This document shows positions 27,571-46,556 of a stretch of 64,000 nucleotides of DNA, piece after piece. Below the pieces are notes generated by a model. It was not told the DNA's origin. It saw only the letters and a program-made list of their open reading frames with translations, and did not search any database. Source of the stretch: a virus; IMG/VR virus record IMGVR_UViG_3300025120_006500, positions 1 through 64,000 of that record; one strand, 5' to 3'. The position numbers and the translations under genes are program-made. Each line of letters starts with the position of its first letter. Position 1 is the first letter of the stretch.

Positions 27571-28536
27571 ATGAAAGTATTAGTTACAGGTGGTGCTGGA
27601 TTCATTGGTCATAATGTTGTTAGACAACTAGAACAACTAGATCATGAATGTTTAATTTTAGATACCCATACAGACTATGGCTTTGTTCCTAGTGAAGAAA
27701 ATAAGTATCTCATTGACCATCGATTACGTCGTGTAAAAGCAACCTGTAAATTAATTGATATTAGGCACCCTGCTTATATAGAAACTATTATTGAATCATT
27801 CCGTCCAGACATATTGATACATATGGCTAGTTTTCCTAGACAAAAAATAGTAGGCAGAACTCCAATATTGGCCAGTGATGTAATGAGTAATGGCTTATTG
27901 AATCTATTAGAAGCAAGTAAAGATAGAATTGAAAAATTTGTGTACATATCAAGTTCGATGGTATACGGTGACTTTGAAAATGATGTTACAGAAGATAGCG
28001 ACTGTAATCCAATTGGACAATATGGTATACAAAAGCTAGCAGGAGAAAAGTTAGTAAAAGATTATACACGCCAAGAATATTTCGATAATATTATTATTAG
28101 GCCAAGTGCTGTTTACGGAGAGTGGGACGTCAATGATCGTGTAGTAAGTAAGTTTATGACCATGGCTATGCGTAACGAAATTCTTAAGGTCCATGGGCAG
28201 GATGAAATTTTAGACTTTACATATGTAGAAGATACTGCTAATGGTATTGTGTTGGCCGCAACTAAAGATGTTAAAAATACTACATACAATATAACAAGAT
28301 CAAATGATCGTACATATACTTTACACGATGCCGCAAAACTTGCTAATAAAATTGCAAATCCTTTAGGTAAAATTGATCTAGGACCTAGAGATTTAGATTT
28401 TCCTAAACGTGGTAGATTAGATATAACAAAAGCAATCAGAGAACTAGGATATAATCCTAAAGTTAATGTTGAAGAAGGGTTTAAAAAATACCATGAATGG
28501 TATCTAGATAATCCTAAGTTATGGCGTGACTTTTAA
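27571..28536 (+). CDS. NAD-dependent nucleotide-sugar epimerase/dehydratase (extended SDR)
   Basis: 321 residues. N-terminal GGAGFIGHN nucleotide loop, catalytic YGIQK (Tyr-x3-Lys), SSSMVYG strand and ILDFTYVEDTA follow the GalE/RfbB family order. It converts a nucleotide sugar, probably feeding the glycosyltransferases in the window. The 3' end overlaps the minus-strand gene by 18 nt, so convergent transcripts meet here. Confidence 0.9.
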   Translation: MKVLVTGGAGFIGHNVVRQLEQLDHECLILDTHTDYGFVPSEENKYLIDHRLRRVKATCKLIDIRHPAYIETIIESFRPDILIHMASFPRQKIVGRTPILASDVMSNGLLNLLEASKDRIEKFVYISSSMVYGDFENDVTEDSDCNPIGQYGIQKLAGEKLVKDYTRQEYFDNIIIRPSAVYGEWDVNDRVVSKFMTMAMRNEILKVHGQDEILDFTYVEDTANGIVLAATKDVKNTTYNITRSNDRTYTLHDAAKLANKIANPLGKIDLGPRDLDFPKRGRLDITKAIRELGYNPKVNVEEGFKKYHEWYLDNPKLWRDF

Positions 28537-29841
28537 TTTAGTCACGAAATTAAAGTGTTTCTCTAACCAATCCCAATCAAACGATTTCATTAAAGCATCA
28601 TGGACGGGATATCTTTCTCCGTTCTGAACGCATTCATTGTAGTAACGGATACCATCCTCTGCACCTTTAATACTATATTCTGCATTTAGTCCTTGTGCTC
28701 TTGTTAACCAGGTTTGTAATCTATGTATGCTTTCTATATTCTCTGTGTCAATTTTTAATTTAATTACTTCACGGAATGCTGTACGCCAGGTCATTAATTG
28801 ATCACTGTTATAATGTGCTGTTCCGCTTACTAGAGGTACTACAGTGTGCAACTGGCTCATGGTAAAGTCTAACCCATACTGATCAGTATCAAGTACTAGC
28901 TGTTTGTTATATGCAACTACTGCCATATGTCCATATACTAGATCATTTATTGGGTTTCGTGCGTGAAATATATAATGCTTTGGTTGTTGTAGGTAGTCTG
29001 GTTGCCACTCCCAATCAAAATCTTTATTAACTTCTAGTTTTCCCCATACTGCAAAAAACCATGGTGTTGTACTTAACTTGGCCGCCTGTTTGATAGCAAG
29101 TTCTCTACCTGTGACATTCTTAACACGTTTAACATTATGATCTGTAGTTGTTAATAGATGATCAAACCACTTCTCACTATCTATTTCTCCGTTACTGATA
29201 TAGATTATATCCAGCATTTGAGACGTCATAATCGCTGGTTTTTGCTTAATTACATAGGGGTAATCATAGATTTGAGACTCTAAATGTGACTGTATTTCAC
29301 GTGGGGCTACTGCGATACTACCGCTTTTATTAAAAGTGTAATATGCACGTTTATTCCATAATGGAGGATCAAAGTCTACAGTTTGGTTAATCGATAGATA
29401 GGGAGCATTAAAGTGTGCATCCTTAAGATGTTCTGTTATGTTTTCTGTTGTACATTCTACTACAGGCCATGGCAGTCTAGGTACTCCGTCTTCGTGCCAA
29501 TTAATGTCTTTATACCATTCTAACAGTTCTATATCTTGTTGCTTTAAAAACTGATCTTTTGGTACTAAAAAAGTATCACCAAATTCTTGTTTTCCACTTG
29601 CCCAGCAGTGTATTTGATAGTTTTCCCATGGTACTGACTTGTAGTTAAAATTAAAATCATCATAGGAGCAACAACTTGAAATTACCCAAGCATATGGGGT
29701 TCTACAACGTGAAATACAGCGTTTTAACGTGTCTAAGTGATTATCGTAGTATCTTACCACCTTTGCGTGTGGAAAACGCTCTACGAGACCCTGTACATTG
29801 TCATTGTGTCCGCCCAGATCCATGATAAAAATGTCGTACAT
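28519..29841 (-). CDS. Large two-domain protein, C-terminal half paralogous to the 43456 gene
   Basis: 440 residues. The C-terminal half (HARNPINDLVYGHMAV, then WRTAFREVIKLK) matches the GT-A-like protein ending at 43456 (KARNEINGLMYG, WRAGFREGVKM). The N-terminal half is Asp/Tyr/Trp-rich with FIMDLGGHNDN and RCISRCRTPYAWV. It probably binds a nucleotide sugar or a related donor; no catalytic motif is complete. Last gene of the minus-strand operon. ATG overlaps the preceding stop by 1 nt. Confidence 0.6.
   Translation of the reverse strand: MYDIFIMDLGGHNDNVQGLVERFPHAKVVRYYDNHLDTLKRCISRCRTPYAWVISSCCSYDDFNFNYKSVPWENYQIHCWASGKQEFGDTFLVPKDQFLKQQDIELLEWYKDINWHEDGVPRLPWPVVECTTENITEHLKDAHFNAPYLSINQTVDFDPPLWNKRAYYTFNKSGSIAVAPREIQSHLESQIYDYPYVIKQKPAIMTSQMLDIIYISNGEIDSEKWFDHLLTTTDHNVKRVKNVTGRELAIKQAAKLSTTPWFFAVWGKLEVNKDFDWEWQPDYLQQPKHYIFHARNPINDLVYGHMAVVAYNKQLVLDTDQYGLDFTMSQLHTVVPLVSGTAHYNSDQLMTWRTAFREVIKLKIDTENIESIHRLQTWLTRAQGLNAEYSIKGAEDGIRYYNECVQNGERYPVHDALMKSFDWDWLEKHFNFVTKLKVTP
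28525..28546. terminator. Candidate bidirectional terminator hairpin at convergent ends
   Basis: CGTGACT (28525-28531) pairs with AGTCACG (28540-28546), loop TTTAATTT, within the overlap between epimerase and minus-strand stops. There is no clear U-run beyond the stem, so termination is only suggested by position. Confidence 0.35.
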
Positions 29842-30263
29842 TACTTCTGTTTTTCCATATAATTACTTACTACCTTTAACAATTCATTATGCGTATTGTC
29901 AAACCATTCTCGAACGTGATAGTTGTAATTTTTAGGATTTTCAAATATTAAATTAGTATCATTGAATCGTCCTTCTTTAATCGTATCCATCCATATGGTA
30001 TAATCAGCGTTGAATATATCTCTTGTTTCGTTAGTAGGACATACAAAGTCTGCTACAGCAATCTTTCCAGCTAGTTGTACTCCGTCTGCTAAATGTCGCA
30101 TACGGTATGCCTGCTTGACACGACCGTCTACCGTAAAGTCTTGATCATCGTATCTAGTTCTAACCTTATCAGCATTAATCCAAATTCCATTAATTAACTC
30201 AGCGAATGGTTCTGCTAGTGTTGTTTTACCACTTCCGGGCAGTCCGCATATTAATATCCGCAT
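29841..30263 (-). CDS. APS-kinase-like P-loop kinase
   Basis: 140 residues with Walker A GLPGSGKTTLA (7-17) and WINADKVRTRYDDQDF, GRVKQAYRMRHLADGVQL and VADFVCPTNETR. These follow the adenylylsulfate-kinase (CysC) order closely but the domain is short. Might phosphorylate a sugar or nucleoside instead of APS. Overlaps the carbamoyltransferase by 13 nt. Confidence 0.75.
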   Translation of the reverse strand: MRILICGLPGSGKTTLAEPFAELINGIWINADKVRTRYDDQDFTVDGRVKQAYRMRHLADGVQLAGKIAVADFVCPTNETRDIFNADYTIWMDTIKEGRFNDTNLIFENPKNYNYHVREWFDNTHNELLKVVSNYMEKQK

Positions 30264-31738
30264 AATACTTTTACCTTATATGTTTCTTCAAATCTGTTAG
30301 CATCACTGATATCATTGACCATTGGTTCACCTCGAATATTTAGACTAGTGTTTAATAACATCGGGCATCCAGTCCACTGATACCAAGCTTCTAGTAATTT
30401 TCTTATACCACTAGGACAATCTTTACCGACTGTTTGTACACGACTAGTTCCGTCTTTATGTACAATCGCTGGAAATTTTCCTGGATGTATACAACGACCT
30501 ACGGCCTGCATATAAGGACTTGATTTAAATCCAATTGGCATATCAAAATAATCACTAACAAGTTCTTCTAGTATGACCGGAGCAAATGGACGGAATTTTT
30601 GTCTATGTTTAATTTGATTTACTTGGTCTTTAATATCTTTACCGCGAGGGTCTGCTAGTAATGATCTATTACCTAAAGCACGAGGACCGAACTCTGCACG
30701 ACCATTTGCTACTCCTACTATTTTGTTTGTTACTAATTCATTTAGTAATTCTTTAACAGGATATTCCCCAAATATATCTGTACCTAAATAAGGACCTTGC
30801 CAATTTAATTTCTTACCATAACTTAATGCGGCCGCACCTAAACTTGATCCAGCATCACCTGGATTAGGCATAATCCAAATATTGTTAAAGTATGCACCTA
30901 GATGTTCATTGGCTAGACAATTAAGTGCAACTCCTCCCATATACACTAAATTTTTACTTTTACCTAGTTCGTCTGCACGTAACATTATTTGATGCAAACA
31001 GGTTTCTAATGTCCATTGTGCAGAAGCGGCTACATCAAAGTTGATCATTTCGGGCATCCAGTCCTGACATCCAATGTGTAAGTTTTCTTTGAATCTTATG
31101 TCCTTGGCACTCTCTAAGAAATGTCCCCAGGTGTTTGCATCGTATTTCCCATATGCCGCCATACCCATTAAGATATATTCTTCATCCATTGGTAAAAGTC
31201 CTGCACGTTGAGTCATTGCTGAATAAAACATACCTAGGCTGTGCGGATATTTTTGACTCCACAACTTTTTGTATTTGGCATAACCATTGCTATCATAGGT
31301 GGCGTCCCATATGGATATAGTATCCCATTCTCCTATTGCATCAATAACAACTACTGTTGCATCATCATATGGTGATGTTTGAAATCCGCTAGCGGCGTGT
31401 GATAAATGATGGCTATGATGTTTTACTGGAATATTTTTTAGATTTGCCCATGGTGCTATTCTATCTAGCATTGAACTTACTGATTCAAAGTTAAAGGCAT
31501 CTCGATATTGTCCAGCATATAGTTGCCTAGTCTTTTTTAACCATGGACGTTCGTAGTAAGCAATCTGATCAGGACGACCGGTTTGAGTAATGCAATCGCT
31601 GAGTAACTTAGTATTCAGCTGACTATCGTGTTTGTTTTTACTGTATCGTTCCGAATGAGCGGCAAATAAAATTTTATCATTACTAATAAAACTTATCCCT
31701 GCATCATGAAACCCAGCCGATATTCCTAATATGTTCAT
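30251..31738 (-). CDS. NodU/CmcH/TobZ-type carbamoyltransferase
   Basis: 495 residues. N-terminal Kae1-like domain: ILGISAGFHDAG, HHSHHLSHAASGF (metal His cluster), VVIDAIGEWDT and GLLPMDEEY. C-terminal YrdC-like domain: ANGRAEFGPRALGNRS and FRPFAPVI. Uses carbamoyl phosphate and ATP to O-carbamoylate a hydroxyl, commonly on sugars or natural products. Slightly shorter than the ~560-residue type. In phages such enzymes have been tied to carbamoylated DNA bases, which is one option. Confidence 0.93.
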   Translation of the reverse strand: MNILGISAGFHDAGISFISNDKILFAAHSERYSKNKHDSQLNTKLLSDCITQTGRPDQIAYYERPWLKKTRQLYAGQYRDAFNFESVSSMLDRIAPWANLKNIPVKHHSHHLSHAASGFQTSPYDDATVVVIDAIGEWDTISIWDATYDSNGYAKYKKLWSQKYPHSLGMFYSAMTQRAGLLPMDEEYILMGMAAYGKYDANTWGHFLESAKDIRFKENLHIGCQDWMPEMINFDVAASAQWTLETCLHQIMLRADELGKSKNLVYMGGVALNCLANEHLGAYFNNIWIMPNPGDAGSSLGAAALSYGKKLNWQGPYLGTDIFGEYPVKELLNELVTNKIVGVANGRAEFGPRALGNRSLLADPRGKDIKDQVNQIKHRQKFRPFAPVILEELVSDYFDMPIGFKSSPYMQAVGRCIHPGKFPAIVHKDGTSRVQTVGKDCPSGIRKLLEAWYQWTGCPMLLNTSLNIRGEPMVNDISDANRFEETYKVKVLCGY

Positions 31739-32375
31739 TGATTGTCTCTGCTATCCGTTGATGTCCTAGCTCAAGTGGATGACCACCTGGACCTTTTGGG
31801 CAATCACCTTGCCACGTTAATATACCTTCTGTTGGCCAACCTAAGAAATAATCTTGATCAATTTGGTCGACTAAATGACTGTTACGTGCTATTCTTGCTT
31901 GTGCATTAGGATATAAATCTGTCCACATATCAAATGTGTTTACAAATAGATATTTTTGATTACGTGACTTAAGAAATTCTTGTATTAGTACTACGTTCTG
32001 CAGATATTTCTGATAATCAAAATCTAAATCTTGTGCATACTTAAAATAATTTACTGCCCAAGAAAAGTTAGGTTCATTATTCCACTTTGGCCCTGCACTT
32101 GTTGTTATCCCCTCGCCGTTCCAGCCTTGACCTATATCGCCATCTTTAATCATAAATCTTTCGATGTATGTCCAAGCTATAATTACTATGTCATACTCTT
32201 TATCAATCTCTTCTAGTAGAGTTCTAATAATTCTATCGTTACTACCACCACTCTTAGCTAGGTTTACAAGATCCCAACCATTTTCTTTACATAGTTGACT
32301 TGGCCAACTTTGAGTCATTCGATCATCTAGTTCATCACCGTAAGTAAAACTACATCCTAATGTTAGTAGTTTCAT
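31704..32375 (-). CDS. SGNH/GDSL-like hydrolase or acyltransferase-type protein
   Basis: 223 residues. Block I GCSFTYGDEL carries the nucleophile Ser position; SGGSNDRI is a block-III-like Gly/Asn turn; GGHPLELGHQRIA provides the block-V His. The family hydrolyses or transfers acyl groups. No signal peptide, so it is likely cytoplasmic. Its 3' end overlaps the carbamoyltransferase gene by 35 nt. A paralogue follows at 32400. Confidence 0.7.
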   Translation of the reverse strand: MKLLTLGCSFTYGDELDDRMTQSWPSQLCKENGWDLVNLAKSGGSNDRIIRTLLEEIDKEYDIVIIAWTYIERFMIKDGDIGQGWNGEGITTSAGPKWNNEPNFSWAVNYFKYAQDLDFDYQKYLQNVVLIQEFLKSRNQKYLFVNTFDMWTDLYPNAQARIARNSHLVDQIDQDYFLGWPTEGILTWQGDCPKGPGGHPLELGHQRIAETINEHIRNIGWVS

Positions 32376-32384
32376 TTGTAAATA

Positions 32385-32411
32385 AAAGGGTCTCTTTTTT
32401 TAAGAGCCTTT
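32385..32411 (-). terminator. Intra-operon hairpin between the two SGNH-like genes
   Basis: On the plus strand AAAGG-gt-CTCTT (32385-32396) pairs with AAGAG-CCTTT (32402-32411). On the minus strand the stem follows the stop of the upstream gene (33050-32400) and is followed by U-rich sequence. It could attenuate expression of the distal genes rather than end the operon. Confidence 0.4.
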
Positions 32412-33050
32412 AACTTTTTTCGATAAGATATTTCTAACTTGATACGTTTGTAAATTCTTTTTAACCATTGCATCGAATCTCTCCTTAATTAAATCTGCGG
32501 CATCTTGATGTGCTTGTTCTAACGGATGACTATCTGGACCTATACTGTACTTATTTTCTACTGCCCATTGGTAAAAGCCTCTTGGTGTTGTTGTTTGACT
32601 ACTTACAGGCCGATCGGGCATAACAGTTCCTGATGGAAACATAAACCAACTATCGTAATCTATTGCAGGATTGTTTGTAATTATGCAATTATCAACGCAG
32701 GTAAACACGTATGGAATAGCAAGATCTACTAAGTGTTTCTGGAGACTAAGTATCCAATGATCACTATCTATGTCATTGTCTCTAGCTTGCCAAGTCCAAC
32801 ATACCATTACTGCACTAGTATCTTGTGTTACTGCTTTTATAACCCTGTCGTGTATCTCATTATTTCCAATTCCTGGATATGCTGTACAGACATATCTATC
32901 AGTAGATACTAGTGCCTGTAGTGATACAGCTGAGCTAGTAGATAACAATGCAGGAAATGTCTGCATACTGTATCCATTAGGTCCACCGTGTGGGCAATCA
33001 GCTAGCTCACTACCCCAAATAAAACTGTCACCACCGGATACTAAAATCAT
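32400..33050 (-). CDS. SGNH-like protein, paralogue of the 31704 gene
   Basis: 216 residues: block I GGDSFIWGSEL, block III PGIGNNEIH, block V DSHPLEQAHQDAA. Similar in order to the neighbouring SGNH-like protein, but with a longer basic C terminus (ILSKKVKGS). Likely a duplicated acyl hydrolase/transferase or a noncatalytic partner. Overlaps the next upstream gene by 4 nt. Confidence 0.65.
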   Translation of the reverse strand: MILVSGGDSFIWGSELADCPHGGPNGYSMQTFPALLSTSSAVSLQALVSTDRYVCTAYPGIGNNEIHDRVIKAVTQDTSAVMVCWTWQARDNDIDSDHWILSLQKHLVDLAIPYVFTCVDNCIITNNPAIDYDSWFMFPSGTVMPDRPVSSQTTTPRGFYQWAVENKYSIGPDSHPLEQAHQDAADLIKERFDAMVKKNLQTYQVRNILSKKVKGS

Positions 33051-34258
33051 TGTGTCGATGACACCGTACTGCTATAGTTGTATCCATCTTGCATTTTAGC
33101 AATTTGTTGTTCTTTATAATCAAGATCAGTCCAGCAATAATTATATTCGTTAGTAATTGTATCTTTCCATTCTGGAACCAGTATAGAAATACTATAGATA
33201 TCTAAATATCTACCTAATATTTTTCTAACTTCAATTGGATCCATATTATTCATATCTTGACCATTATATAGATCGTCGAATCGAACCTGCCCTATAGGAG
33301 CATAACCTAAACTTAGCATTTTGTTATCTGGATCGTAATTATTTTTTATTAGCCACTCACGAAATTCCTTTTGTTCTTGGTCGTGCCATGGTGTAGATGG
33401 ATTGCCTGCAACTACGTTATTTCCCCATTCTATATTAAATTCCCCACTAAAGTATTCTTGATGTGTTATTGCTTCACACATTGCTTGATCTAGATCAGGA
33501 GCATTTTCGTCTCTGAATACTTCAAACAGAGTTTTTCCTAGTTGTGGCCAATGTAAGTACACTATGCCAAATTCTCTATCGTATCCATTTTCTAGAAACA
33601 CTTCTCTCATTTCGTCTGTTAGCGTAATTCTAGGTGCTTGAAGGAATGTAGTTATTTGACTACTACGCACCCATTCGGGACTAGTTTCTTGCTTACGTAA
33701 ACTTAACATTAAACTTTCTAGTTCATGACAGATTATGTTTAACTGCCTTATAGCATATTTGGTATCATGGTCTGCTACTCGATAGTATTCACTAAGATTA
33801 CCTACTGTTCCTTGTAGTATTTCAAAATGGTTGTGTAATTGATTCATTAAATAGTCGCTAGGATCTAACCCGTTACGTATAGTATCTTCGGCATATACTT
33901 CTTGTATAGTATATTTTAGTTCGTGTTCGTGGAAGAAAGAATTTATTTGATCTACTGCTTTGTTTAGTTCTTGAAGTAGATAAGGAATATTACGTGCAGT
34001 ATTTGGAAATCCCATAAAACAAAAGTTCTTTTCTAGATGGTATTTGTTCTGTACTAAATTTACTAGTGCATCACTCCACTCTTGTACTAGTTCACTGCCT
34101 GAGAATGCTTCAATTACATATGTTAATGTATCACTATGATCCAATGGGTTACGTAAAACAATTTTTATTTCTCTTCTTTGCCAATGCCCAATCCCAGTAT
34201 CTCCGCTATACTCATATGTTGTTCCATCTTTCCTAGTTATTGTTTGTGTACCACTCAT
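33047..34258 (-). CDS. Unknown large protein in the radical SAM operon, 403 aa
   Basis: Not recognised. Soluble and acidic, with a predicted beta-rich N terminus (IKIVLRNPLDHSDTLTYVIEAF) and a mainly helical middle (NQLHNHFEILQGTVGNLSEYY; NIICHELESLMLSLRK). Segments FNIEWGNNVVAGNPSTPWHDQEQ and LSLGYAPIGQVRF are distinctive and could form a binding site. It has no homologue in this window. Overlaps the adjacent radical SAM gene by 26 nt; it may be a partner or substrate-binding subunit. Confidence 0.65.
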   Translation of the reverse strand: MSGTQTITRKDGTTYEYSGDTGIGHWQRREIKIVLRNPLDHSDTLTYVIEAFSGSELVQEWSDALVNLVQNKYHLEKNFCFMGFPNTARNIPYLLQELNKAVDQINSFFHEHELKYTIQEVYAEDTIRNGLDPSDYLMNQLHNHFEILQGTVGNLSEYYRVADHDTKYAIRQLNIICHELESLMLSLRKQETSPEWVRSSQITTFLQAPRITLTDEMREVFLENGYDREFGIVYLHWPQLGKTLFEVFRDENAPDLDQAMCEAITHQEYFSGEFNIEWGNNVVAGNPSTPWHDQEQKEFREWLIKNNYDPDNKMLSLGYAPIGQVRFDDLYNGQDMNNMDPIEVRKILGRYLDIYSISILVPEWKDTITNEYNYCWTDLDYKEQQIAKMQDGYNYSSTVSSTQ

Positions 34259-35534
34259 GAACCTCTTTCCTCCCCTGCAGGATATTTTCTAGTGTTAATT
34301 TATCTTTACGTATATCTTCTAATTGTAACACACGAGCCTTACCTTTTGCAATACCTTTGGTATATTCATCAGGCCATTGCTCTTGGAAAGTTGGACGTGT
34401 TTTTAACTGTTTAAGGGTATCCTGCAATGCACCGGTAGTTTTTGGTACTAGTTCATCGACCCATGGATGTAATATTGATTTTGGTAATGCTAAAGGACTT
34501 AATATGATATCAGGGCTAAAACTAAACACTATCTTAGATAAGATATCCACACCTAGTTCTTGCCCTAGTTCTTGTATTTTGATAACTTCAAACATACCCG
34601 GAAGAGTAAGAGTGAAGTCTATTCTCATTTGTCGTCTGGACGTAACTCCTCGAAGGCCTTCTTCAAAGTTTTCACGCCACTTCTTATAGCTAAGACCTGT
34701 TCTGATATATTCTCCAATTTCTTCCGTGCCATCGAGGCTTGCACAAATCTGCCAGTCCCGTAGCCTAGATAGAATATCAGTATAGAGGTTGATACCGCGA
34801 TAATTGATGCGACTAAGATTTGTGTTGTATCTAGCATAAACATTTTTGCCATCTCCTAATTCAACTATACGTTTCATATACCGCCAATGTTGTTCATACA
34901 TTAACGGTTCACCACCTACCCAATACACTTCCTCGATTTGATGGTTCTCCACCGCGGTAGAAAACTCCTGTTCTATCTCAGTGTCTTGAAACTTTTCGAT
35001 TTGTTTTTTTATTGTAGGACGCATCCAATTATTTTTTGGATTATCCCAATTGATAGTGTTATGTTTCTTTTGCTCTGTTTCCCAACTACTAGATAACATA
35101 TCACCGCACATACGACACTTAAAATTACAAAGATTACTAAATCGATAATCCCAGCTTACGGGTTTCATGGTTGTATAACCATCTGCGTCCGTAGTATCCC
35201 ATATACTATCATACTTATTACTAAACATATTGTTGAAATACGATCTGTATACGTCTGTGTTCAATAGCTTGTGGTTACAAACTTCACATTCGTCTAAAGT
35301 TTCTCCTGCCATCATACGCTTACGCACTGATTTCATATGGTCTGAATTCCAATGTTTTTCTAGTGTTATTGGTTGATATTCACCACTGCCGGCTTTGGTA
35401 TCTATATACTGTTCAAAGCTCTGTGCAGGCTCGCGACTAGCACAACACATTCTACGTTCAGTCTGTGGCGATAGGTAAGTATGAGTCCACGGAGCCATAC
35501 ATAAATTATTCGGTGTGCTATCTGGTTTACTCAT
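34233..35534 (-). CDS. Radical SAM protein with N-terminal SPASM-like block (operon copy 1, group A)
   Basis: 433 residues. An N-terminal Cys block (Cys12 in CMAPW, Cys30/31, then Cys83/86 in CEVC) precedes the cluster motif CNFKCRMC (Cys136, 140, 143) and the GGEPLMYEQHW strand. ICASLDGTEE is a typical core strand. This gives a SPASM-first order, opposite to classic enzymes. Part of a seven-gene tandem family. Substrate unknown. Overlaps neighbours on both sides by 26 and 8 nt. Confidence 0.85.
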   Translation of the reverse strand: MSKPDSTPNNLCMAPWTHTYLSPQTERRMCCASREPAQSFEQYIDTKAGSGEYQPITLEKHWNSDHMKSVRKRMMAGETLDECEVCNHKLLNTDVYRSYFNNMFSNKYDSIWDTTDADGYTTMKPVSWDYRFSNLCNFKCRMCGDMLSSSWETEQKKHNTINWDNPKNNWMRPTIKKQIEKFQDTEIEQEFSTAVENHQIEEVYWVGGEPLMYEQHWRYMKRIVELGDGKNVYARYNTNLSRINYRGINLYTDILSRLRDWQICASLDGTEEIGEYIRTGLSYKKWRENFEEGLRGVTSRRQMRIDFTLTLPGMFEVIKIQELGQELGVDILSKIVFSFSPDIILSPLALPKSILHPWVDELVPKTTGALQDTLKQLKTRPTFQEQWPDEYTKGIAKGKARVLQLEDIRKDKLTLENILQGRKEVHEWYTNNN

Positions 35535-38220: not shown

Positions 38221-39629
38221 AATGTATTATACCATTCTGTTAATTTAGGAAATATTTCTGTAAAATTTTTATCTCGACGTAGATCATATTGTTGAAAGAA
38301 ACTTTTAAAATCTTTTCTTAATCCACTTATATTAATATCTTCAGCTAGGTCGCTAAACTCTAGATTATGCTCCCCTCTATGAGGCTCTTTAATGTCTTTA
38401 AGATAGTTTGCAAATCTTGTTATTATTGCAATCTCATTCTTATTGAATACCGAACTGTTATTAACAAAATTACTTATATCTAGACTCAGCTGATTCCTTA
38501 CAGTTTGAGGTAACACTACTACATTCTGGAACGTTGGAAATCTAACTATGTTTATATACAAACTATAAAAATCTGCACCATACTTTTTCTTTTGCACTTC
38601 TAGCCATTCTAGAAACTTAACAAAGCCAGTAGCACCTAATGCTCCCATTGTTGTTAATACTTCAACCTGAGTAAATAAATTACTTTTAGCAACAGACTCC
38701 ATATTAGTTTCCCATTGTGACCAATTAAATCCATCTCTAATATAATCTCCTGTTGCTCCGATACTTTCCCCACTTACTGCTAATATTACCCGAGGCTTAA
38801 TTTGTTTTACTTTATCGAATAACTTTTCTAACACACTGTTGTCGTATGCAAGATTTGTTGTAATATGTATCTGTTGTAAACTACAGTCAGGGTTATCAAT
38901 TAACCAATCTAAAAACTTCCAGGTATATCCTGACATCATCGGCTCACCACCTGTTAGTCGAAGTATCCTTAAATTATCTTTAAGACTCTTTTCCCACCAG
39001 TCAAAAAACGCATCGGCATAAGGATTACTCTCATTAATTTTAAATTTTATCCTATCGTCGGCAGTTGATTTATAAAGGTCTCTATCATCTGTAGTTATAT
39101 TTTCATATGCTCCATGATTCCTTATGTCTCTTGCCCAACTACTACTTACTTCTGGACAACAATAGCTACAGGCCAATTGGCAGGTTCTGTCAAATGATAC
39201 TTCAAGTACCCTGGGATCAATTATATCAGTTTTAGATTCCCATACATCATCTAGAGTTTTCCAGTTTTGAGCTTCATCCTCAGGATCACTGTTGCTACTA
39301 TACACAACTCTGTCTGGTATTCCTCCACTATCTTCTATAACCCAACAATATTGACACCCTTCAGGTCTTTTATCTTCTCGCATTAACTGTCTTTCTTTAA
39401 TTTTCTGGTCAGTTGAATTTAATCTACCAGGGTCTTGCTTTGCTTGGTCAAGGTCTATAGGGTGTGGTGGATTATGGTGACAGCTAGCTGTTGTGCCATT
39501 ATACAACCATATGGAAGATGTTAACCATTTAGCACCACAGAAAGTTTTACTCTTGGTATCGAGATGTTCTTTTTTCCAGAGTATAATCTCTTGTTCGGTT
39601 ACCTGCTGTTTCATATACTTTGATACCAT
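38217..39629 (-). CDS. Radical SAM protein (copy 4, group B)
   Basis: 470 residues. N-terminal Cys31 (CGAKW), Cys50 (SCHHNPPHPID), Cys92/95 (CQYCW), then the cluster motif CQLACSYC (150, 154, 157) and TGGEPMMSGYTWK. C-terminal signature QQYDLRRDKNFTEIFP. Group B differs from group A by 'AKW' for PW and by the HHPxxHPID segment. ATG at 39629. Stop overlaps the microprotein. Confidence 0.87.
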   Translation of the reverse strand: MVSKYMKQQVTEQEIILWKKEHLDTKSKTFCGAKWLTSSIWLYNGTTASCHHNPPHPIDLDQAKQDPGRLNSTDQKIKERQLMREDKRPEGCQYCWVIEDSGGIPDRVVYSSNSDPEDEAQNWKTLDDVWESKTDIIDPRVLEVSFDRTCQLACSYCCPEVSSSWARDIRNHGAYENITTDDRDLYKSTADDRIKFKINESNPYADAFFDWWEKSLKDNLRILRLTGGEPMMSGYTWKFLDWLIDNPDCSLQQIHITTNLAYDNSVLEKLFDKVKQIKPRVILAVSGESIGATGDYIRDGFNWSQWETNMESVAKSNLFTQVEVLTTMGALGATGFVKFLEWLEVQKKKYGADFYSLYINIVRFPTFQNVVVLPQTVRNQLSLDISNFVNNSSVFNKNEIAIITRFANYLKDIKEPHRGEHNLEFSDLAEDINISGLRKDFKSFFQQYDLRRDKNFTEIFPKLTEWYNTL

Positions 39630-40966
39630 TCTTCAAGTTGAGGAAATGTTTCTGTAAAGTTCTTACCCCTACGTTGATCATATTGTTGATAGAATTCTTT
39701 AAAGTCCTTACGTAAAGTGTTAACTTCCATTGCTTCACTATGCGGAGTCTTAACTATGTCTAAGTAATCTATTAATCGCTGTACGTGATTTACTTCGTAT
39801 TCGTGTAAGGTTACATCAAGTTCATTTGTGTTAAGCCACTCTTGAAGTCTTTGTTTATATTCTATCCTAATATTATCTGGTAATACCAATGCACTTTGGA
39901 AACTTGGAAAACGCATTATATTAAGACTAAAGCTCAATGAGAACTTACCGTGTCGATGTTTTAGTGTCATTAGATACTCTAACAGATCTGTAATAGAATC
40001 TAAACATAAAGCATTTATAGTAAACATCACGTGCATTATCTTAATTGAATTACTAGCCATTAATGTTTCAAGATTACGTTGCCATTGAGTGTATTCTATG
40101 CCGTCTCGAATATATTCACTTTGAGCGTGTACACTTTCGTTACTGGTATATATTTCTAGATTAGGTATCCCTTCAACTGCTTCTAGTAACTTTTGTAACT
40201 TATTATCATCAAATGCTAAATTTGAGTTTATAGCTAGCTTTGTGTCGCTCTTGCCTTTATTATGTTTAAACCAATCTATAAGTTTCCAGGTATGTCCACT
40301 CATAAAAGGTTCACCTCCGGTAATACGTAACTCGTTTAGTGTTTTGTGTAAGTCTGTTTCCCACCATTTAAAGAAAGCCTCGATGTAAGGATTCGTTTCA
40401 CTAAAAGTATACAACTGGCTACTGTCATGACTGTGAGTAAAATGATCCCTGCCGTCGGACACCAAGCCGGCATAGGGACCATTACGTTTAATATCTTTAA
40501 CCCAAGTACTGCTAAATGCAGGGTTACAATAGCTACAAGCAAGCTGGCAAGTCCTATCGAAAGCAATTTCCAGGGTTTTAAGATTGACATCTTCTGTATG
40601 TGGTTTGTTAAAAGCTTCTTCATTTTCTTTATCCTTATATATAATTGTTTTATAAACACGATCACTAATTGCATCTGTTCCCATATCCTCGACTTTCCAG
40701 CAGTATTCACACCCACTAGGACGGTCGCCCTCTTGCATCTGCTTACGTTCTTGTTTTTTCTTAGCAGTATTATGTATAGCACTTGGATTAGTTTTAATTG
40801 CTTCACGATCTATAGGGTGCGGTAACGGATGATGGCAACTAGTAGTCATACCTGATCCTAACCATATGGTAGCATTATACCATTTAGCCGCACAGAAGCT
40901 ATCACTTTTAATATCAATGACTCTACGTTTGTATTCTAGGTCTGTTTCGTTAAACTGTTTTGCCAT
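39611..40966 (-). CDS. Radical SAM protein (copy 5, group B)
   Basis: 451 residues, the closest relative of the neighbouring group B copy: CAAKW (Cys25), TSCHHPLPHPID (Cys44), CEYCW (86, 89), cluster motif CQLACSYC (140, 144, 147), TGGEPFMSGHTWK and QQYDQRRGKNFTETFP at the end. Probably a recent tandem duplication with divergence in the middle. Overlaps copy 4 by 19 nt and abuts copy 6. Confidence 0.88.
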   Translation of the reverse strand: MAKQFNETDLEYKRRVIDIKSDSFCAAKWYNATIWLGSGMTTSCHHPLPHPIDREAIKTNPSAIHNTAKKKQERKQMQEGDRPSGCEYCWKVEDMGTDAISDRVYKTIIYKDKENEEAFNKPHTEDVNLKTLEIAFDRTCQLACSYCNPAFSSTWVKDIKRNGPYAGLVSDGRDHFTHSHDSSQLYTFSETNPYIEAFFKWWETDLHKTLNELRITGGEPFMSGHTWKLIDWFKHNKGKSDTKLAINSNLAFDDNKLQKLLEAVEGIPNLEIYTSNESVHAQSEYIRDGIEYTQWQRNLETLMASNSIKIMHVMFTINALCLDSITDLLEYLMTLKHRHGKFSLSFSLNIMRFPSFQSALVLPDNIRIEYKQRLQEWLNTNELDVTLHEYEVNHVQRLIDYLDIVKTPHSEAMEVNTLRKDFKEFYQQYDQRRGKNFTETFPQLEEWYQSI

Positions 40967-42088
40967 CTATAGAAACTCGTATGGTATTTTAATATTCTTA
41001 CGCTGGCTAAATTCTTGCAAGAACTCTTGTAATTCATCGTATAATTTTTTATCAAATCTATGCACTATCAGAGATTCAATTATTGAATCAACGTTTTTGA
41101 TAAAAGGTTGACTTCTCAGTGTGTTAAGGGTTATAAGATATGGTATCTTTTCTTCCTCAGGCACTGTAGCAAATCCCTGTATTTTAGGACTAACACAATA
41201 GCTTAATCTCCAGGTTGCACTATCAGTACGACCGCAGTATCCTGTAATCAATTGGATCGTGTTTGCTATATCTTTTATAGTTAAGCTAGTAAACAGAGTT
41301 AAGAATATGATTTCTACATTGTCTGCCATATTATCTAATATGTAATCGACATTGTCCTTCCATTGTGTAAAATCTAGTCCTAGTCTAGTAAACTCTCCTA
41401 TCTTATCGGTACTGTCGATACTAATACCTAACCTTAATTTTTTATATTTCTTGCTTAACTGTAATATCTTGTCTAGTTTCTTTTGACTACAGCTAAGATT
41501 AGTTGTTATACTTAAAGTGTCAACATTATCTACAGAATCTAATAATTTAAAAAGATTCTTGTTCTGCAGAGGTTCACCACCTATTACATTTAGCAATTCA
41601 ATTTGATCATATTGCTTTAAGAAATCTAGATTATTTTCTTTATTTTCTTTCGACTTTGGTTCAATTTTATAGTGATGTAGATCTGTTTTAAATTTATAAT
41701 GCTTTTTAGAGATATCACCTTCCCACTTGCTACTAAAAGTAGGGCCACAATAAGTACATTGAAAATTACATTCATTACCTAAATTAACTTCTATATTCTT
41801 TGGCTGTCGATTATTAACATATTCGTCGTATGTTGTGGTATCAAACGTGCTCATGAATGCGTTTCTATCACTAACGCCTCCTTGATTTTCTATATCCCAA
41901 CAGTAATTACAACTTGGATCTTGTGTGTCTGATAATAAATTTTCTTTTTGTCGATCTAGTTCTTTACTCCAATCACTAACAAAGTTGATAGGGCTAGCCT
42001 TACAACAAGCGTATGCACGATTATAATTAAAGTTAAGATGTAGATCATCCCACTTCGATGGACAAAATGTCTTAGAGATTTTCGGCAT
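40967..42088 (-). CDS. Radical SAM protein (copy 6, short)
   Basis: 373 residues: CPSKW (Cys9), CC (28-29), CNYCW (60, 63), cluster motif CNFQCTYC (107, 111, 114), GGEPLQNKNLFK and ISIDSTDK. It is intermediate between the groups and lacks the C-terminal QYDxRRxxNF signature, though a related QEFSQRKNIKIP remains. Overlaps copy 7 by 17 nt. Confidence 0.86.
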   Translation of the reverse strand: MPKISKTFCPSKWDDLHLNFNYNRAYACCKASPINFVSDWSKELDRQKENLLSDTQDPSCNYCWDIENQGGVSDRNAFMSTFDTTTYDEYVNNRQPKNIEVNLGNECNFQCTYCGPTFSSKWEGDISKKHYKFKTDLHHYKIEPKSKENKENNLDFLKQYDQIELLNVIGGEPLQNKNLFKLLDSVDNVDTLSITTNLSCSQKKLDKILQLSKKYKKLRLGISIDSTDKIGEFTRLGLDFTQWKDNVDYILDNMADNVEIIFLTLFTSLTIKDIANTIQLITGYCGRTDSATWRLSYCVSPKIQGFATVPEEEKIPYLITLNTLRSQPFIKNVDSIIESLIVHRFDKKLYDELQEFLQEFSQRKNIKIPYEFL

Positions 42089-43463
42089 ACCACTTGCACT
42101 CCTGCCAAAATTCTTTCATCTGAGGGAACGTGGCTACAAAGTCTAGTTGCCTACGTTTATCATACTCACTAAAAAACTTATAAAAGTCACTACGTTGCTC
42201 TTGCAAATATTTTTCTGATAATTTTTTACCTTTTTTCATCCAATCGATATCACGTCTTAATCGTTGTATCTCATAATCTTTAAACCCAGCAAATTGATCG
42301 CTATCTTCATCTAGTTTATGTAGTTCCATCCACTTATAAACATTTTCTAAAATATTTACATAGCTCTCAGGTAAAATTTGCAGACTTTGCCAACTTGGTG
42401 TACGTAATACAGGAGTATCAAACCATATCTTTTGATAGTCTTTTGAATATAATCTACGTAATTCTAATATCCATTCGAACTGTCTCTGTAACCCAAGTAT
42501 ACTGAGATTATTCATAGTTATAATAAAAGTTAAGCTATTCCTATTAGGAACTGATGTTAGATATTTGTGTACATAGCTATGCAGACGTTGTGGATCTAAT
42601 CCGTCTCTAATATATTTTGCGTGATCATGATCACCGGTATCTAAACTAACATACTGCATAAAGTGTTCTATTCGTTCACCCTTACATAACTGTTTTACCT
42701 TGTCAATGTATTTGTCAAACAGTTGAGGCACTACTGAAAAATTTGATGTAACATCAACGTGTAAATCTGGTTTAGGCATAGATAAAATATAGTCAAACAC
42801 TTTATGAGTATTATTATCCATTAATGGTTCACCACCTGTCATACGGAAGTGTTTTAAGTTAGGATATAATTCAGGCCACCACTTCCAAAATGCTTCTACA
42901 TAAGGATTATTTTCACGTACTGGAATTGGTTGTCTCCTGCCTTTAAAGTGCATTGGATCATTGTGTGGTGACTTTGTAGGATATGCTCCCCATCGATTAA
43001 TATCTTTAGTCCATTCTGTTGAAAACTGTGGGCTACAATAACTACAGGCAAGATTACAAGCATTGCTAAAGTTTACTTCTACATAACTTGGAACAACATC
43101 AGCGTCCCATGGTTGATTAACTATCTTATCATGATGTTCTGCGGCCCATGGCTCACCACTACGATAATGTCTATCACTTAAATGACCAGCGTCCTCCATA
43201 TTCCAACAGTATGAACATTCGCTAGGCTTTTCACCTTGTAGCATTTTTTTACGTTGGAGTTTTTTGTGTGCAGTGTTATGCAATGCGCCTGGATTAAATT
43301 CTATAACTGCACTGTCAATTTCGTGTAATGGTGGGTGATAGCAACTATTATTAAGTCCTGTAGGTAAATGTAAACTAACCTGTTGCCATTTAGCAAGACA
43401 CAGACTAGGACCTAATTTATCCTTCATTTCTTCAGCTGATGACAAAAATTTACTTTTACTCAC
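42072..43463 (-). CDS. Radical SAM protein (copy 7, group B)
   Basis: 463 residues: CLAKW (Cys22), NSCYHPPLHEID (Cys41), CSYCW (83, 86), cluster motif CNLACSYC (136, 140, 143), TGGEPLMDNNTHK and a C-terminal SEYDKRRQLDFVATFP. All cluster residues kept. Begins within 8 nt of the GT-A-like gene's 3' end and is the first radical SAM gene transcribed in the operon. Confidence 0.88.
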   Translation of the reverse strand: MSKSKFLSSAEEMKDKLGPSLCLAKWQQVSLHLPTGLNNSCYHPPLHEIDSAVIEFNPGALHNTAHKKLQRKKMLQGEKPSECSYCWNMEDAGHLSDRHYRSGEPWAAEHHDKIVNQPWDADVVPSYVEVNFSNACNLACSYCSPQFSTEWTKDINRWGAYPTKSPHNDPMHFKGRRQPIPVRENNPYVEAFWKWWPELYPNLKHFRMTGGEPLMDNNTHKVFDYILSMPKPDLHVDVTSNFSVVPQLFDKYIDKVKQLCKGERIEHFMQYVSLDTGDHDHAKYIRDGLDPQRLHSYVHKYLTSVPNRNSLTFIITMNNLSILGLQRQFEWILELRRLYSKDYQKIWFDTPVLRTPSWQSLQILPESYVNILENVYKWMELHKLDEDSDQFAGFKDYEIQRLRRDIDWMKKGKKLSEKYLQEQRSDFYKFFSEYDKRRQLDFVATFPQMKEFWQECKWYAENL

Positions 43464-44349
43464 GTACCATTACCCCTTGGTTTTTAAATCCTGATTTATA
43501 ATGTTTCTTAAAGAAAGTACTTTGTTCTAGATCTAGTTCTACTATGTCTAGATCTAGTCTACGTAGACTATTAGCATATTGAGCAAGTAGAGGTTCTGGA
43601 TTTTGATCTTTGATTGTATTCCATTTCTTTTCTAAATTATCAAACCACTGCACTTCTGTATAATCCCAATCGCCTAACATAGTCATTTTAGTTCCTAATC
43701 TGGCACCTAGCATACTCCATTGTCCATTCTCAACATCGCGACCTACGTTATGCCATATAGCAAGATGATCTAGATTGCGATTATGTGCTTTTTGTTTAAA
43801 GTCACTTATGCTAGGTTTTGTTCCTCTATCTAAACACATCTTAACACCTTCACGGAATCCTGCTCGCCAGGCCTGGAAAGGAGTTGCATTAGGATATGTA
43901 GTTGAATAGCAATCGTGCATTGCCCAGTAATTAGGATCAAAACAAAACTCTACTGCTGTGTCGTCACTACCATCACTGTTTTCATGAGTTTTCATATTGT
44001 ATATAAATTGTTTAGTCCAACAACTTAGTCCACCATTACCGTACATAAGTCCATTTATTTCGTTACGGGCTTTCCAACGGAATACACAATCTTGATTATC
44101 GTCATCTAACACTAACTGTTGATTAAAGAACTCTGATTTCGGAATGTTATCACCGTCTATTAGAATAAATCTATCTGTAGTGCTAGCATCAGCCGCGGCT
44201 TTGTGTGCGGCATCACTGCCTTTAACTCCATCTATTCTAGTTGCCCAAGGTACCATATTGGAAATTTTAATCCAATACTCTTCTTTTTTAGGCTCGTCGT
44301 AACTGAGATAAACACAATCTAAATCAGCTATATCAACTATTTTCTTCAT
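43456..44349 (-). CDS. GT-A-like glycosyltransferase-family protein
   Basis: 297 residues from ATG 44349; a longer frame to 44391 would overlap the previous gene deeply. Contains DRFILIDGDNIPKSEFF with a DGD motif like the DxD metal site, and ARNEINGLMYG and WRAGFREGVKM shared with the 28519 gene. Likely binds a nucleotide sugar. Acceptor unknown. ATG overlaps the upstream stop. Confidence 0.65.
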   Translation of the reverse strand: MKKIVDIADLDCVYLSYDEPKKEEYWIKISNMVPWATRIDGVKGSDAAHKAAADASTTDRFILIDGDNIPKSEFFNQQLVLDDDNQDCVFRWKARNEINGLMYGNGGLSCWTKQFIYNMKTHENSDGSDDTAVEFCFDPNYWAMHDCYSTTYPNATPFQAWRAGFREGVKMCLDRGTKPSISDFKQKAHNRNLDHLAIWHNVGRDVENGQWSMLGARLGTKMTMLGDWDYTEVQWFDNLEKKWNTIKDQNPEPLLAQYANSLRRLDLDIVELDLEQSTFFKKHYKSGFKNQGVMVRE

Positions 44350-44680
44350 AGTATTCCACGTTAGTGTATGTTTCTTTTTCCAGCAAGACACCTGCGTGAT
44401 TCATGACCACTTGATATCCTTGATTGCTACTCTTTAATTGTACACGATATCCGGTCGGGAAGTCAATAATTTTCGGCTTACCGTCAACTATTTTATAGTC
44501 TCGAGTATCAAAATAAACAGTTTCGTCTACTACAATATACTGAGTATTCTCTGGATGGTTTTGTAGCGTCTGCATATAGATAAAACCAGTATGGTCATAG
44601 TGTAATCTATATTCAACGGCCTCTTCAATGATCTCTGGCCATTTTTCCATAGCTTGATCTAGTTCTTGTTGTGTAAACAT
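44333..44680 (-). CDS. Unknown protein, 115 aa
   Basis: A helical N terminus (QQELDQAMEKWPEIIEEAV) is followed by strand-like repeats (YIVVDETVYFDTRDYKIV, YRVQLKSSNQGYQVVMN). Soluble. Overlaps its neighbours by 17 and 22 nt, so it is part of the glycosyltransferase block. Not recognised. Confidence 0.6.
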   Translation of the reverse strand: MFTQQELDQAMEKWPEIIEEAVEYRLHYDHTGFIYMQTLQNHPENTQYIVVDETVYFDTRDYKIVDGKPKIIDFPTGYRVQLKSSNQGYQVVMNHAGVLLEKETYTNVEYYEENS

Positions 44681-45510
44681 TCTTTATACCTTTCGATTAT
44701 CTCATCGGTGAGCCAATTCTTATCTTGGTAGTGTATAGGATGATATTGATTAACATTGTTAATACGTATCATTGGAAGATCTATTTCTGTCATTATCATT
44801 TCAGTCCAAGATTTATCATCAGGCCAATCATTGATTGCATTTTTCATATGAGTAAAGTTGATAAAATCACAATCAGGCAATGTACATAGTTCAACTCCTA
44901 ATGTTTTTGCCGTAATAGCATAAACTACGTCAGTTGATGCTTCTTCATAATTAAATCCTTTTAGTATATTTTCTTTTACTGTTTCCCATTGTTTAAATAC
45001 TTGTTCTGCTATTTCAAAAAATTCACTAGCAGTTTTGCTATAACGAAAGTACATTAGTCCGTTGTAAACATCCGGCAATTGGTTAGCATCAAATATTTTT
45101 CTATACACTCTTGACTTGGCTTGTTTACCTTTAAAATCTCGTGTGCCTAGACTTAACACTATGTCGCGTAGCCTAAATGCGTGCCACCAATGTTCTATAC
45201 TGCGTGTAAACAAGATATCGCTTTCTACTTTTATTGTTTCTTTGTAAGGACTTAGATTAAACACTTGCCATTCGTTGGCTAACTTCCACTCATCTTGTTT
45301 GGCATAGTCCTCATCTAGAACTCGAATATGATCAAACACTAGTCGTTGCTCGTCTGTGATTTGTTCGTTAGTAGATTTATCAACAATAACACAATATTGA
45401 CTGTCAGGCATAGTTAACTTAATACTCATAGCCTGTGCATATGCTAGTCGTAGATAGTCTACTCCGTCTGTGTTCTGTGCTATAGTTAAAAATCCTCTAT
45501 CTATAGACAT
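44659..45510 (-). CDS. GT-A-like glycosyltransferase-family protein
   Basis: 283 residues starting FLTIAQNTDGVDYLRLAYAQA, with SPYKETIKVESDILF at the DxD-like position (ESD) and a long C-terminal helix region. Paralogous to the 45501 protein. The predicted role is sugar transfer; the degenerate metal site leaves activity uncertain. Overlaps neighbours by 22 and 10 nt. Confidence 0.65.
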   Translation of the reverse strand: MSIDRGFLTIAQNTDGVDYLRLAYAQAMSIKLTMPDSQYCVIVDKSTNEQITDEQRLVFDHIRVLDEDYAKQDEWKLANEWQVFNLSPYKETIKVESDILFTRSIEHWWHAFRLRDIVLSLGTRDFKGKQAKSRVYRKIFDANQLPDVYNGLMYFRYSKTASEFFEIAEQVFKQWETVKENILKGFNYEEASTDVVYAITAKTLGVELCTLPDCDFINFTHMKNAINDWPDDKSWTEMIMTEIDLPMIRINNVNQYHPIHYQDKNWLTDEIIERYKECLHNKN

Positions 45511-46268
45511 ATTTCATCCAACAGTTTTTGGTGGCTGTCACCTAATAGGTAATCTTTATCCATGATGTGTAAATTCTGTCTTGTTATTATGTATGCCTTG
45601 CTGTCTTCTCTCACTATTAGTTTGTTGTTTTGTGTTTCAATCTTTTTAACTCTATGGTCAATTGTTAACATACGCCAAGGTATGCCCGGGCTGGCTTGAT
45701 ATCCTGAAAGAATGTTATCAGCTATAGCAAAAGCATAATCATTACGGAAGTTATCTTCTCTTAAGTGATATAATTTTACGTAGTATTCGTAGTTCCTTTG
45801 TATCCTACCAACTAAATCAAATAACTGTTTGGCTTTTTGAGTTTTTTTAAATACTACCGCAGTCGCCCAGACAAATGCTAAACTTAATATACCCATATCT
45901 CCGTCTTGGCTATGTGTTGGTGATTGGTTGTTTGACATTATTTTATAATCGTCAACCGTATCTAAGATCTTAATCAGGCTGTTGTCAAATATCAAATAGT
46001 CACTGTCTAACAATAAAGTTTCATCATACGGGCTAAGTTCATAAGCACGATATCTATCACCATTAAACCATTGGCTACCGTTTTTATATCCTATCCTCAC
46101 ATTAGTTTGAGGACTCTGCATATCAGTTATAATGGTAACAGGTAATTTTAAATTGTGTTCAATCAATCGTGCGGCACGTTCTGCGATTTTAACGTAGTCG
46201 ACACTGTCAGTGTTGTAGGCAAATAATAAAACGCCTCTAGACTTTGCGTTGTCGTTTAAGTTCTGCAT
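45501..46268 (-). CDS. GT-A-like glycosyltransferase-family protein (DSD motif)
   Basis: 255 residues from ATG 46268; an in-frame ATG at 46286 lies further inside the upstream gene. GVLLFAYNTDSVDYVKIA at the start and SPYDETLLLDSDYLIF with an intact DSD metal motif fit the GT-A fold. Similar start to the 44659 protein. Nucleotide-sugar donor is likely; acceptor unknown. Confidence 0.7.
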   Translation of the reverse strand: MQNLNDNAKSRGVLLFAYNTDSVDYVKIAERAARLIEHNLKLPVTIITDMQSPQTNVRIGYKNGSQWFNGDRYRAYELSPYDETLLLDSDYLIFDNSLIKILDTVDDYKIMSNNQSPTHSQDGDMGILSLAFVWATAVVFKKTQKAKQLFDLVGRIQRNYEYYVKLYHLREDNFRNDYAFAIADNILSGYQASPGIPWRMLTIDHRVKKIETQNNKLIVREDSKAYIITRQNLHIMDKDYLLGDSHQKLLDEICL

Positions 46269-46551
46269 ACTCAATATGCCACGCATTCATCACTGAGTGA
46301 TAATGTTCTTGGCATTTAGTTAGAAACTCTTGTCTATTGACGGGGATTGGATTGTTGTATGTATCTTCTACAAATAATTCTTCGTCATTCCACGTTGAAA
46401 GGAATGCTATCAGTTCAACAGAAACTAAAAATAAACCACCGTTGTGTGCTACGTGTAAGTCTGTCTTAATCTTTTCACGTAATATCTGTTTATTAGTCTG
46501 AAAATCTGTTGCCTGCTTGATGTGTTCTACTAGTTTATTGATTTCGCTCAT
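46237..46551 (-). CDS. Unknown small protein, first gene of the minus-strand operon
   Basis: 104 residues from ATG 46551, 5 nt behind a late-like box; a longer upstream frame crosses the terminator and is rejected. Mainly helical (MSEINKLVEHIKQATDF; EFLTKCQEHYHSVMNAW) with a basic tail. No family recognised. Confidence 0.65.
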   Translation of the reverse strand: MSEINKLVEHIKQATDFQTNKQILREKIKTDLHVAHNGGLFLVSVELIAFLSTWNDEELFVEDTYNNPIPVNRQEFLTKCQEHYHSVMNAWHIEYAELKRQRKV

Positions 46552-46556
46552 ACTAC

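Follow-up and report, generated by a model that had tools for sequence, protein, structure and literature searches.

What does a virus do with a row of seven radical S-adenosylmethionine (SAM) enzymes? The question is raised by positions 28519 to 46551 of the DNA analysed here (the window), which is 64 kb out of the 66.7-kb IMG/VR virus record IMGVR_UViG_3300025120_006500. This part is filled by 19 open reading frames (ORFs; g01 to g19 in order of transcription), all on the minus strand and transcribed from 46551 towards 28519. An earlier reading of the same DNA (the original prediction) took them for one functional system, a candidate for modifying glycans, DNA bases, or virion proteins. Judged from the conservation described below, the operon is a real shared pathway and not a chance grouping of genes. 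We give slightly better than even chances to its being a pathway of glycan assembly and tailoring, in which radical SAM enzymes would act on sugars, glycosyltransferases (GTs) would assemble them, a carbamoyl group would cap the product, and the product would decorate a surface.

A gene set fixed in content and order

Related loci were collected in two ways. The g17 query gave 80 loci, and an alignment of g13 found at least 549 viral stretches encoding a relative, of which 80 were kept. As the loci were chosen via g17 or g13, the presence of these two genes is uninformative, while that of the others is informative. Eight genes form the core.

43456-44391, minus strand: g05, GT-A fold glycosyltransferase by predicted structure, D-x-D and H136 invariant
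42072-43463, minus strand: g06, N-twitch radical SAM enzyme, core clade 1 (NF033640, tree, motifs)
39611-40966, minus strand: g08, N-twitch radical SAM enzyme, core clade 2 (NF033640, tree, motifs)
36734-38056, minus strand: g11, N-twitch radical SAM enzyme, core clade 3 (NF033640, tree, motifs)
35527-36750, minus strand: g12, N-twitch radical SAM enzyme, core clade 4
34233-35534, minus strand: g13, N-twitch radical SAM enzyme, core clade 5
33047-34258, minus strand: g14, 403 amino acids (aa), fold without PDB match, present in 80/80 g13-selected loci and in two Bdellovibrionota metagenome-assembled genomes (MAGs)
30251-31738, minus strand: g17, NodU/TobZ-type O-carbamoyltransferase, with both Pfam domains and motifs

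In 54 loci the region from g05 to g17 is covered (spanning loci; this definition itself fixes g05, g14, and g17). The full core is found in 48 of them and the remaining six are without g12 alone. The core is collinear on one strand in 50, and in the other four an SGNH homologue lies between g05 and g06. Compared with the closest relative, L101, ratios of nonsynonymous to synonymous substitution rates (dN/dS) are 0.04-0.19 where dS is estimable (it is saturated for g14 and high for several other genes), which points to purifying selection. The view that the set is one system is supported by this recurrence of the same genes in the same order. It is the opposite of the random subsets that the original prediction had named as an argument against a single pathway.

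Around this core the loci vary. Radical SAM genes number from four to eight per locus, most often five. The accessory slots are occupied by methyltransferases (FkbM and others), DegT aminotransferase, and Stf0 sulphotransferase. The commonest accessory gene belongs to an unannotated family of about 345 aa (representative L114:5080-6117), found at 54 positions in L089-L168 in the slots g12-g13, g06-g08, and g05-g06.

Core enzymes

All seven radical SAM proteins of the window pass the NCBIfam model NF033640 (N_Twi_rSAM), with 190-403 bits against the curated cut-off of 170. In all seven the four cysteines of the N-terminal auxiliary cluster and the CxxxCxxC motif are intact, and these motifs are kept in 91-100% of each orthologue group; the four-Cys twitch together with CxxxCxxC was counted in 91-98% of members. 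In a tree of 438 radical SAM proteins, g06, g08, g11, g12, and g13 of the window each fall within a clade of their own (support 0.89, 0.97, 0.94, 0.70, and 1.0, respectively). The paralogues of the window are mostly 20-26% identical pairwise and are therefore old, and they probably do different jobs. Thus the predicted seven radical SAM enzymes are found in the window and all belong to NF033640, while the conserved core has five, g07 and g09 being accessory. When g07 was used as a query against viral contigs, no relatives were found. SPASM domain hits were obtained in three of the window enzymes. Prokaryotic viperin defence (pVip) was rejected as an identity for them, since NCBIfam scores reach no more than 41 bits where 180 are needed and padloc gave weak hits only.

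The DxD motif of g05 is invariant across 43 sequences. Its predicted structure (predicted local distance difference test, pLDDT, 89) has only GT-A proteins as top fold matches in PDB, SunS and HddC first. Four matches with E <0.001 have probabilities of 0.92-1.0, yet their template modelling (TM) scores are about 0.3. The model of g14 is of similar quality (pLDDT 90), but nothing significant was found for it in PDB by sequence or by fold, and in a viral structure library phage proteins were the only matches. A relationship of g14 to cyclophilins was dropped, the hits being scattered at E >2.

The NodU-type carbamoyltransferase had been named correctly: g17 matches PF16861 (5e-50), PF02543 (1e-37), and phrog_1601 (2e-101), and keeps HxxHLxHA and FGPRALGNRS. 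It is closest to the novobiocin, geldanamycin, and tobramycin carbamoyltransferases. Against the NodU equivalog NF041651 it scores 146 bits where >1000 are needed, which places it in the same superfamily but not with the nodulation NodU.

Bacterial counterparts

Counterparts of the core were also found in bacteria, read from MAGs in which contamination is possible. A Bacteriovoracaceae MAG (G019) has radical SAM proteins in all five core clades (support 0.83-0.99), encoded next to housekeeping genes, and a g14 homologue (E 5e-69). In another Bdellovibrionota genome (G174), the g13 orthologue is flanked by glmU on one side and glmS on the other, all three on one strand. A Bdellovibrionia MAG (G020) carries an island in which about ten N_Twi_rSAM genes are joined by an SGNH-like gene and a GT resembling g05; another g05 orthologue of this MAG is found beside three GT2 genes. 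The island corresponds to L194 and L195 (contig C15, 634-671 kb), with further radical SAM-like genes inside.

Phages that carry the operon

Thirteen of the records of 18 long relatives encode a gp23-type capsid protein (PF07068), not counting the window's own record. The nearest cultured capsid proteins are 67-68% identical and come from phages of 285-469 kb, including Vibrio phage 2.275.O, Sinorhizobium phage Phosso, and PA5oct. On the evidence of these capsid genes, the carriers are uncultured jumbo T4-like phages. In a sample selected by capsid, the g13 orthologue or the operon is present in 5/9 records of at least 100 kb and in 2/3 records above 300 kb (two of the five positive records were already in the sets of relatives). 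The operon is common but not universal in this sample.

There is no cultured phage model, because g05, g14, and g08 had no match in tblastn against 50,697 cultured phages. Nor does any N_Twi_rSAM protein exceed the cut-off in the cultured jumbo relatives PA5oct, Phosso, 2.275.O, Atu_ph07, and an Eneladusvirus. Hosts suggested by MAG-binned phage contigs (Pelagibacter, Betaproteobacteria, and Verrucomicrobia) were not trusted.

Phages seldom carry long chains of oxygen-sensitive enzymes. Among the records of at least 218 kb in the first set of relatives (n=5), an A-type iron-sulphur carrier (ATC) is encoded in all five and IscU in three. Five different radical SAM enzymes occur in fixed order in many large aquatic phages, and the largest records also encode iron-sulphur supply; the product must therefore be valuable to the phages.

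Gene layout and control signals

As originally predicted, the 19 same-strand genes are tightly packed. Neighbouring genes share 1-59 nt at 16 of the 18 junctions (less in some cases if later starts were used); at one junction they abut, and at one they are 24 nt apart. The genes outside the core and the neighbours are as follows.

46582-46608, minus strand: intrinsic terminator AAAGCACC-TCGA-GGGGTGCTTTTTTTT, read in the sequence, separating the structural module from the operon
46556-46564, minus strand: late-like box GATAAATA(G), just past the terminator, ending 6 nt before the g01 start
46237-46551, minus strand: g01, 104 aa, function unknown, orthologues at the same place in 20/80 loci (a count limited by contig ends)
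45501-46286, minus strand: g02, putative GT-A protein with invariant DxD (D85, D87)
44659-45510, minus strand: g03, GT8-like (phrog_1903), with weak profile matches to glycogenin, the best in PDB (E 0.0017)
44333-44680, minus strand: g04, 115 aa, function unknown, from the ORF list and relatives' loci
40967-42088, minus strand: g07, N-twitch radical SAM enzyme, accessory, in 5/80 loci (NF033640, tree)
38217-39629, minus strand: g09, N-twitch radical SAM enzyme, accessory, closest to g08 (NF033640, tree)
38053-38220, minus strand: g10, 55-aa membrane microprotein, accessory
32400-33050, minus strand: g15, SGNH-like, fast evolving, with block I/V motifs only
31704-32375, minus strand: g16, SGNH/GDSL protein, fast evolving (DUF6071 3e-11; a PDB GDSL protein 1e-5)
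29841-30263, minus strand: g18, P-loop kinase, APS-kinase-like (phrog_10255), PF01583 above the gathering score
28519-29841, minus strand: g19, degenerate GT-A protein
27571-28536, plus strand: NAD epimerase/dehydratase, nearest dTDP-glucose 4,6-dehydratase, convergent with the operon, at the same place in 35/80 loci
26110-27096, plus strand: ThyA, dUMP-type (Asn177, His147), neighbour of the operon

The operon directly follows tail-fibre and structural genes. Its 3' end lies tail to tail with the epimerase gene, and ThyA is farther out.

Several of the predicted identities had to be narrowed. Among the four GT-A-like proteins, g05 is backed by its predicted structure and g03 by the weak glycogenin matches; g02 is assigned by its DxD motif only, with no match in PDB by sequence, and g19 is without DxD. 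The last is homologous to g05 (hhalign 99.5%, E 3e-22), its DxD metal site being replaced by GK/AK. In some relatives g19 is lengthened by repeated segments that look like degenerate GT-A pieces; such proteins reach 872-2048 aa by repeated 'FDFSW-PDP-PPYIYVFGNQ' segments (L020 11491-17637, L022 11482-14817, and L012 12294-14912). The predicted APS-kinase-like enzyme, g18, passes PF01583 but stays below the NCBIfam apsK cut-offs (20.9 against 138.7 bits for TIGR00455). For the two SGNH-like proteins, the assignment of g16 is carried by domain and PDB matches and that of g15 by motifs alone. The membrane microprotein g10 is present in the window, but it is accessory, as among 80 relatives only L101 has it.

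The single late-like box of the original prediction stands before g01 in the window, where GATAAATA boxes are also found upstream of three minus-strand genes of the structural region (420, 222, and 482 aa). The consensus TATAAATA was dropped as a late box; it is strongly depleted in the window (2 observed, 12 expected), so only the G-variant was considered. ATAAATAG is likewise depleted in the whole window (1 observed, 7.5 expected), which would fit avoidance of the motif. Upstream of g01 in 18 relatives, the GATAAATA box is found only in L101 and, more loosely, near L024. L107 has a perfect TTGACA-N17-TATAAT at this place, and L095, L103, and L118 have a sigma-70-like site with one mismatch. 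Late expression therefore appears not to be general, as the box occurs in two of 18 relatives and near-consensus sigma-70 sites in several others; for the operon as such it is weakly supported.

Other features lie elsewhere in the window. A B12-binding radical SAM protein (6755-8629, plus strand) is nearest to KedN5-type C-methyltransferases (172 bits, below the cut-off). Another radical SAM protein (13300-14166, plus strand) has weak QueE-family hits and might supply a 7-deazaguanine step for modifying DNA or tRNA. A subtilase-family (S8) protease is encoded at 9454-11622 (plus strand). One ORF of 3741 aa covers 52453-63678 (minus strand), and its N-terminal part belongs to the virion structural protein family phrog_10938.

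A proposed glycan pathway and its alternatives

Three features led us to propose a glycan pathway with radical SAM steps: conservation of the four cysteines, neighbours related to sugars, and the kinds of accessory enzymes. The pathway would start from an activated sugar, perhaps derived from UDP-GlcNAc and modified by the 4,6-dehydratase-like enzyme encoded next to the operon. The five core N-twitch enzymes would work one after another on carbon atoms of the sugar or glycan, either oxidising them by two electrons or epimerising them, and the four-Cys auxiliary cluster would accept the electrons in a BtrN-like chemistry. g02, g03, and g05 may serve as sugar transferases, g19 as a non-catalytic GT-A relative that works as scaffold or binds the acceptor, and g14 as an obligatory partner. 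The carbamoyltransferase g17 would cap a hydroxyl, and SGNH proteins, kinase, and the variable methyl-, sulpho-, and aminotransferases would add lineage-specific groups. The finished glycan would decorate a surface, which may be the tail fibres of the phage or the host envelope during infection, the virion being the slightly favoured target.

Glycan decoration, as first suggested, is thus plausible by indirect evidence: GT-A/GT8-like proteins, carbamoyltransferase, epimerase, sugar-tailoring genes, and the order glmU-radical SAM-glmS. The bacterial g05 orthologue beside GT2 genes and the place of the operon behind tail-fibre and structural genes also speak for the glycan pathway. Several points weigh on the other side. 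The glycan product, its substrate, and its target are inferred. The PDB matches of g05 have low TM scores and those of g03 an E of 0.0017; a single MAG provides the link to glmU and glmS, and g14 is without assigned function. Profile searches of radical SAM proteins do not tell sugar from peptide chemistry, and the SPASM-type enzymes known so far mostly modify peptides.

One alternative is that the radical SAM enzymes are maturases of a peptide or protein of the virion or the operon (g04, the g19 repeats, or tail fibres), whose resulting side chains would be decorated by the GTs and the carbamoyltransferase. SPASM hits in three of the enzymes are consistent with this, as are weak matches to peptide maturases and to YydG in PDB, and SunS, the top fold match of g05, which is a peptide S-glycosyltransferase. 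However, no recognisable precursor peptide is kept across loci (g10 is in 1/80 and g04 is unlike one). The repeated segments that lengthen g19 in some relatives count in favour, but they resemble degenerate GT-A pieces, and in one bacterium the g13 orthologue stands beside glmU and glmS. We regard peptide maturation as unlikely. Remodelling of the host envelope, where the same glycan chemistry would alter lipopolysaccharide (LPS) or capsule and block superinfection, is a sub-case whose share is counted within the glycan pathway, and taken by itself it is somewhat doubtful. It is the published reading for the GT8 genes of pelagimyophages, whose host-recognition clusters also differ by radical SAM cassettes (PMC7029224). 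The sigma-70 promoters before g01 in the four relatives suggest expression by host polymerase, possibly early, and the bacterial homologues sit in chromosomal sugar loci. On the other hand, the box before g01 in the window is shared with structural genes, the operon comes after tail-fibre genes, and genes for a flippase, a polymerase, or a membrane anchor were not recognised.

Two further alternatives fare worse. A hot spot of unrelated cargo genes would explain why the accessory slots vary and why four of the nine records of 100 kb or more that were selected by capsid are without the g13 orthologue. It would not explain the fixed core in 48-50 of 54 loci, the purifying selection, or the radical SAM set that recurs together with g14 in the Bacteriovoracaceae MAG, and is very improbable. 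Hypermodification of DNA bases by carbamoyltransferase and GTs, especially to carbamoylated cytosine, is the least probable of all. It had been part of the original prediction, and there is a precedent: a phage TobZ-type carbamoyltransferase makes 5cmdC, by a characterised route from 5-hydroxymethylcytosine (5hmC) to 5-carbamoyloxymethylcytosine (5cmC) that needs a ThyA of the dCMP hydroxymethylase type, with Asp177 (PMC8670742). ThyA is adjacent here, and about 37 relatives have a deaminase-like family in the region of g18 and g19. But Asn177 and His147 are present in each of the 14 ThyA proteins read, that of the window among them (two other records did not fit the pattern and residue 177 was not read in them, and one more was not recovered), and no record has more than one ThyA. 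As the only ThyA here is of the dUMP type, carbamoylation of 5hmC to 5cmC is disfavoured, and the predicted base modification was not borne out for this route. In addition, the carbamoyltransferases that the same study found in unmodified contigs were flanked by genes such as glycosyltransferases (PMC8670742).

The glycan pathway thus remains our preferred reading. In its most specific form, it would be an undescribed system that abundant jumbo phages share with Bdellovibrionota; five radical SAM enzymes in succession and the obligatory partner g14 would turn a common amino-sugar-derived glycan into a new carbamoylated surface polymer. This we put forward tentatively, as possible but well short of probable. 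The chemistry itself has a fair chance of being new in kind. If the product is a glycan, radical chemistry would join the surface arms race between phage and host. The operon also offers a defined enzyme set for the largely uncharacterised N-twitch radical SAM family, with the g14 partner and a bacterial counterpart for genetics.

Comparison with known systems

No description of the whole gene combination or its ordered core was found in the open-access literature. Phage host-recognition islands with GTs and radical SAM cassettes (PMC7029224) and T4-like viruses rich in radical SAM genes (PMC5332604) are already published.

BtrN is a twitch radical SAM enzyme with a four-Cys auxiliary cluster that oxidises an aminocyclitol, while the MoaA cluster has three cysteines (PMC9012708). 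The operon enzymes share with them the radical SAM core and one twitch-type auxiliary cluster, with four cysteines as in BtrN. Their twitch domain is N-terminal, whereas that of BtrN and MoaA is C-terminal. Similarity to MoaA is confined to the radical SAM core, and BtrN is absent from the PDB matches.

With the 5hmC carbamoyltransferase system the operon shares a phage TobZ-type carbamoyltransferase and nearby ThyA and deaminase genes (PMC8670742). It differs in the dUMP-type ThyA and in the linkage of the carbamoyltransferase to radical SAM and GT genes. The N_Twi_rSAM islands of Bdellovibrionota (G019, G020, G027, and G174) share the five core radical SAM enzymes and g14 in the Bacteriovoracaceae MAG, and radical SAM, GT, and SGNH-like genes together in the Bdellovibrionia MAG. 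These genes are chromosomal and scattered, and neither the core order nor the carbamoyltransferase linkage was seen in the MAGs examined.

Nishimura et al. (2017) reported a T4-like environmental virus, TARA_ERS488813_N000010, with 12 radical SAM genes and iron-sulphur assembly genes (ATC and paaD) (PMC5332604). It resembles the present phages in being T4-like, rich in radical SAM genes, and equipped with ATC. Compared by description only, its genes are presented as iron-sulphur-related, and the available part of that account names no operon, orthologue sets, or linkage to carbamoyltransferase or GT. Closest in setting is the host recognition cluster of pelagimyophages, a variable island of tail fibres and glycosyltransferases, GT8 being the commonest, where two genomes differ by added radical SAM cassettes (PMC7029224). 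That cluster is described as hypervariable, with carbamoyltransferase unmentioned in that text, whereas the present operon keeps its eight core genes in a fixed order.

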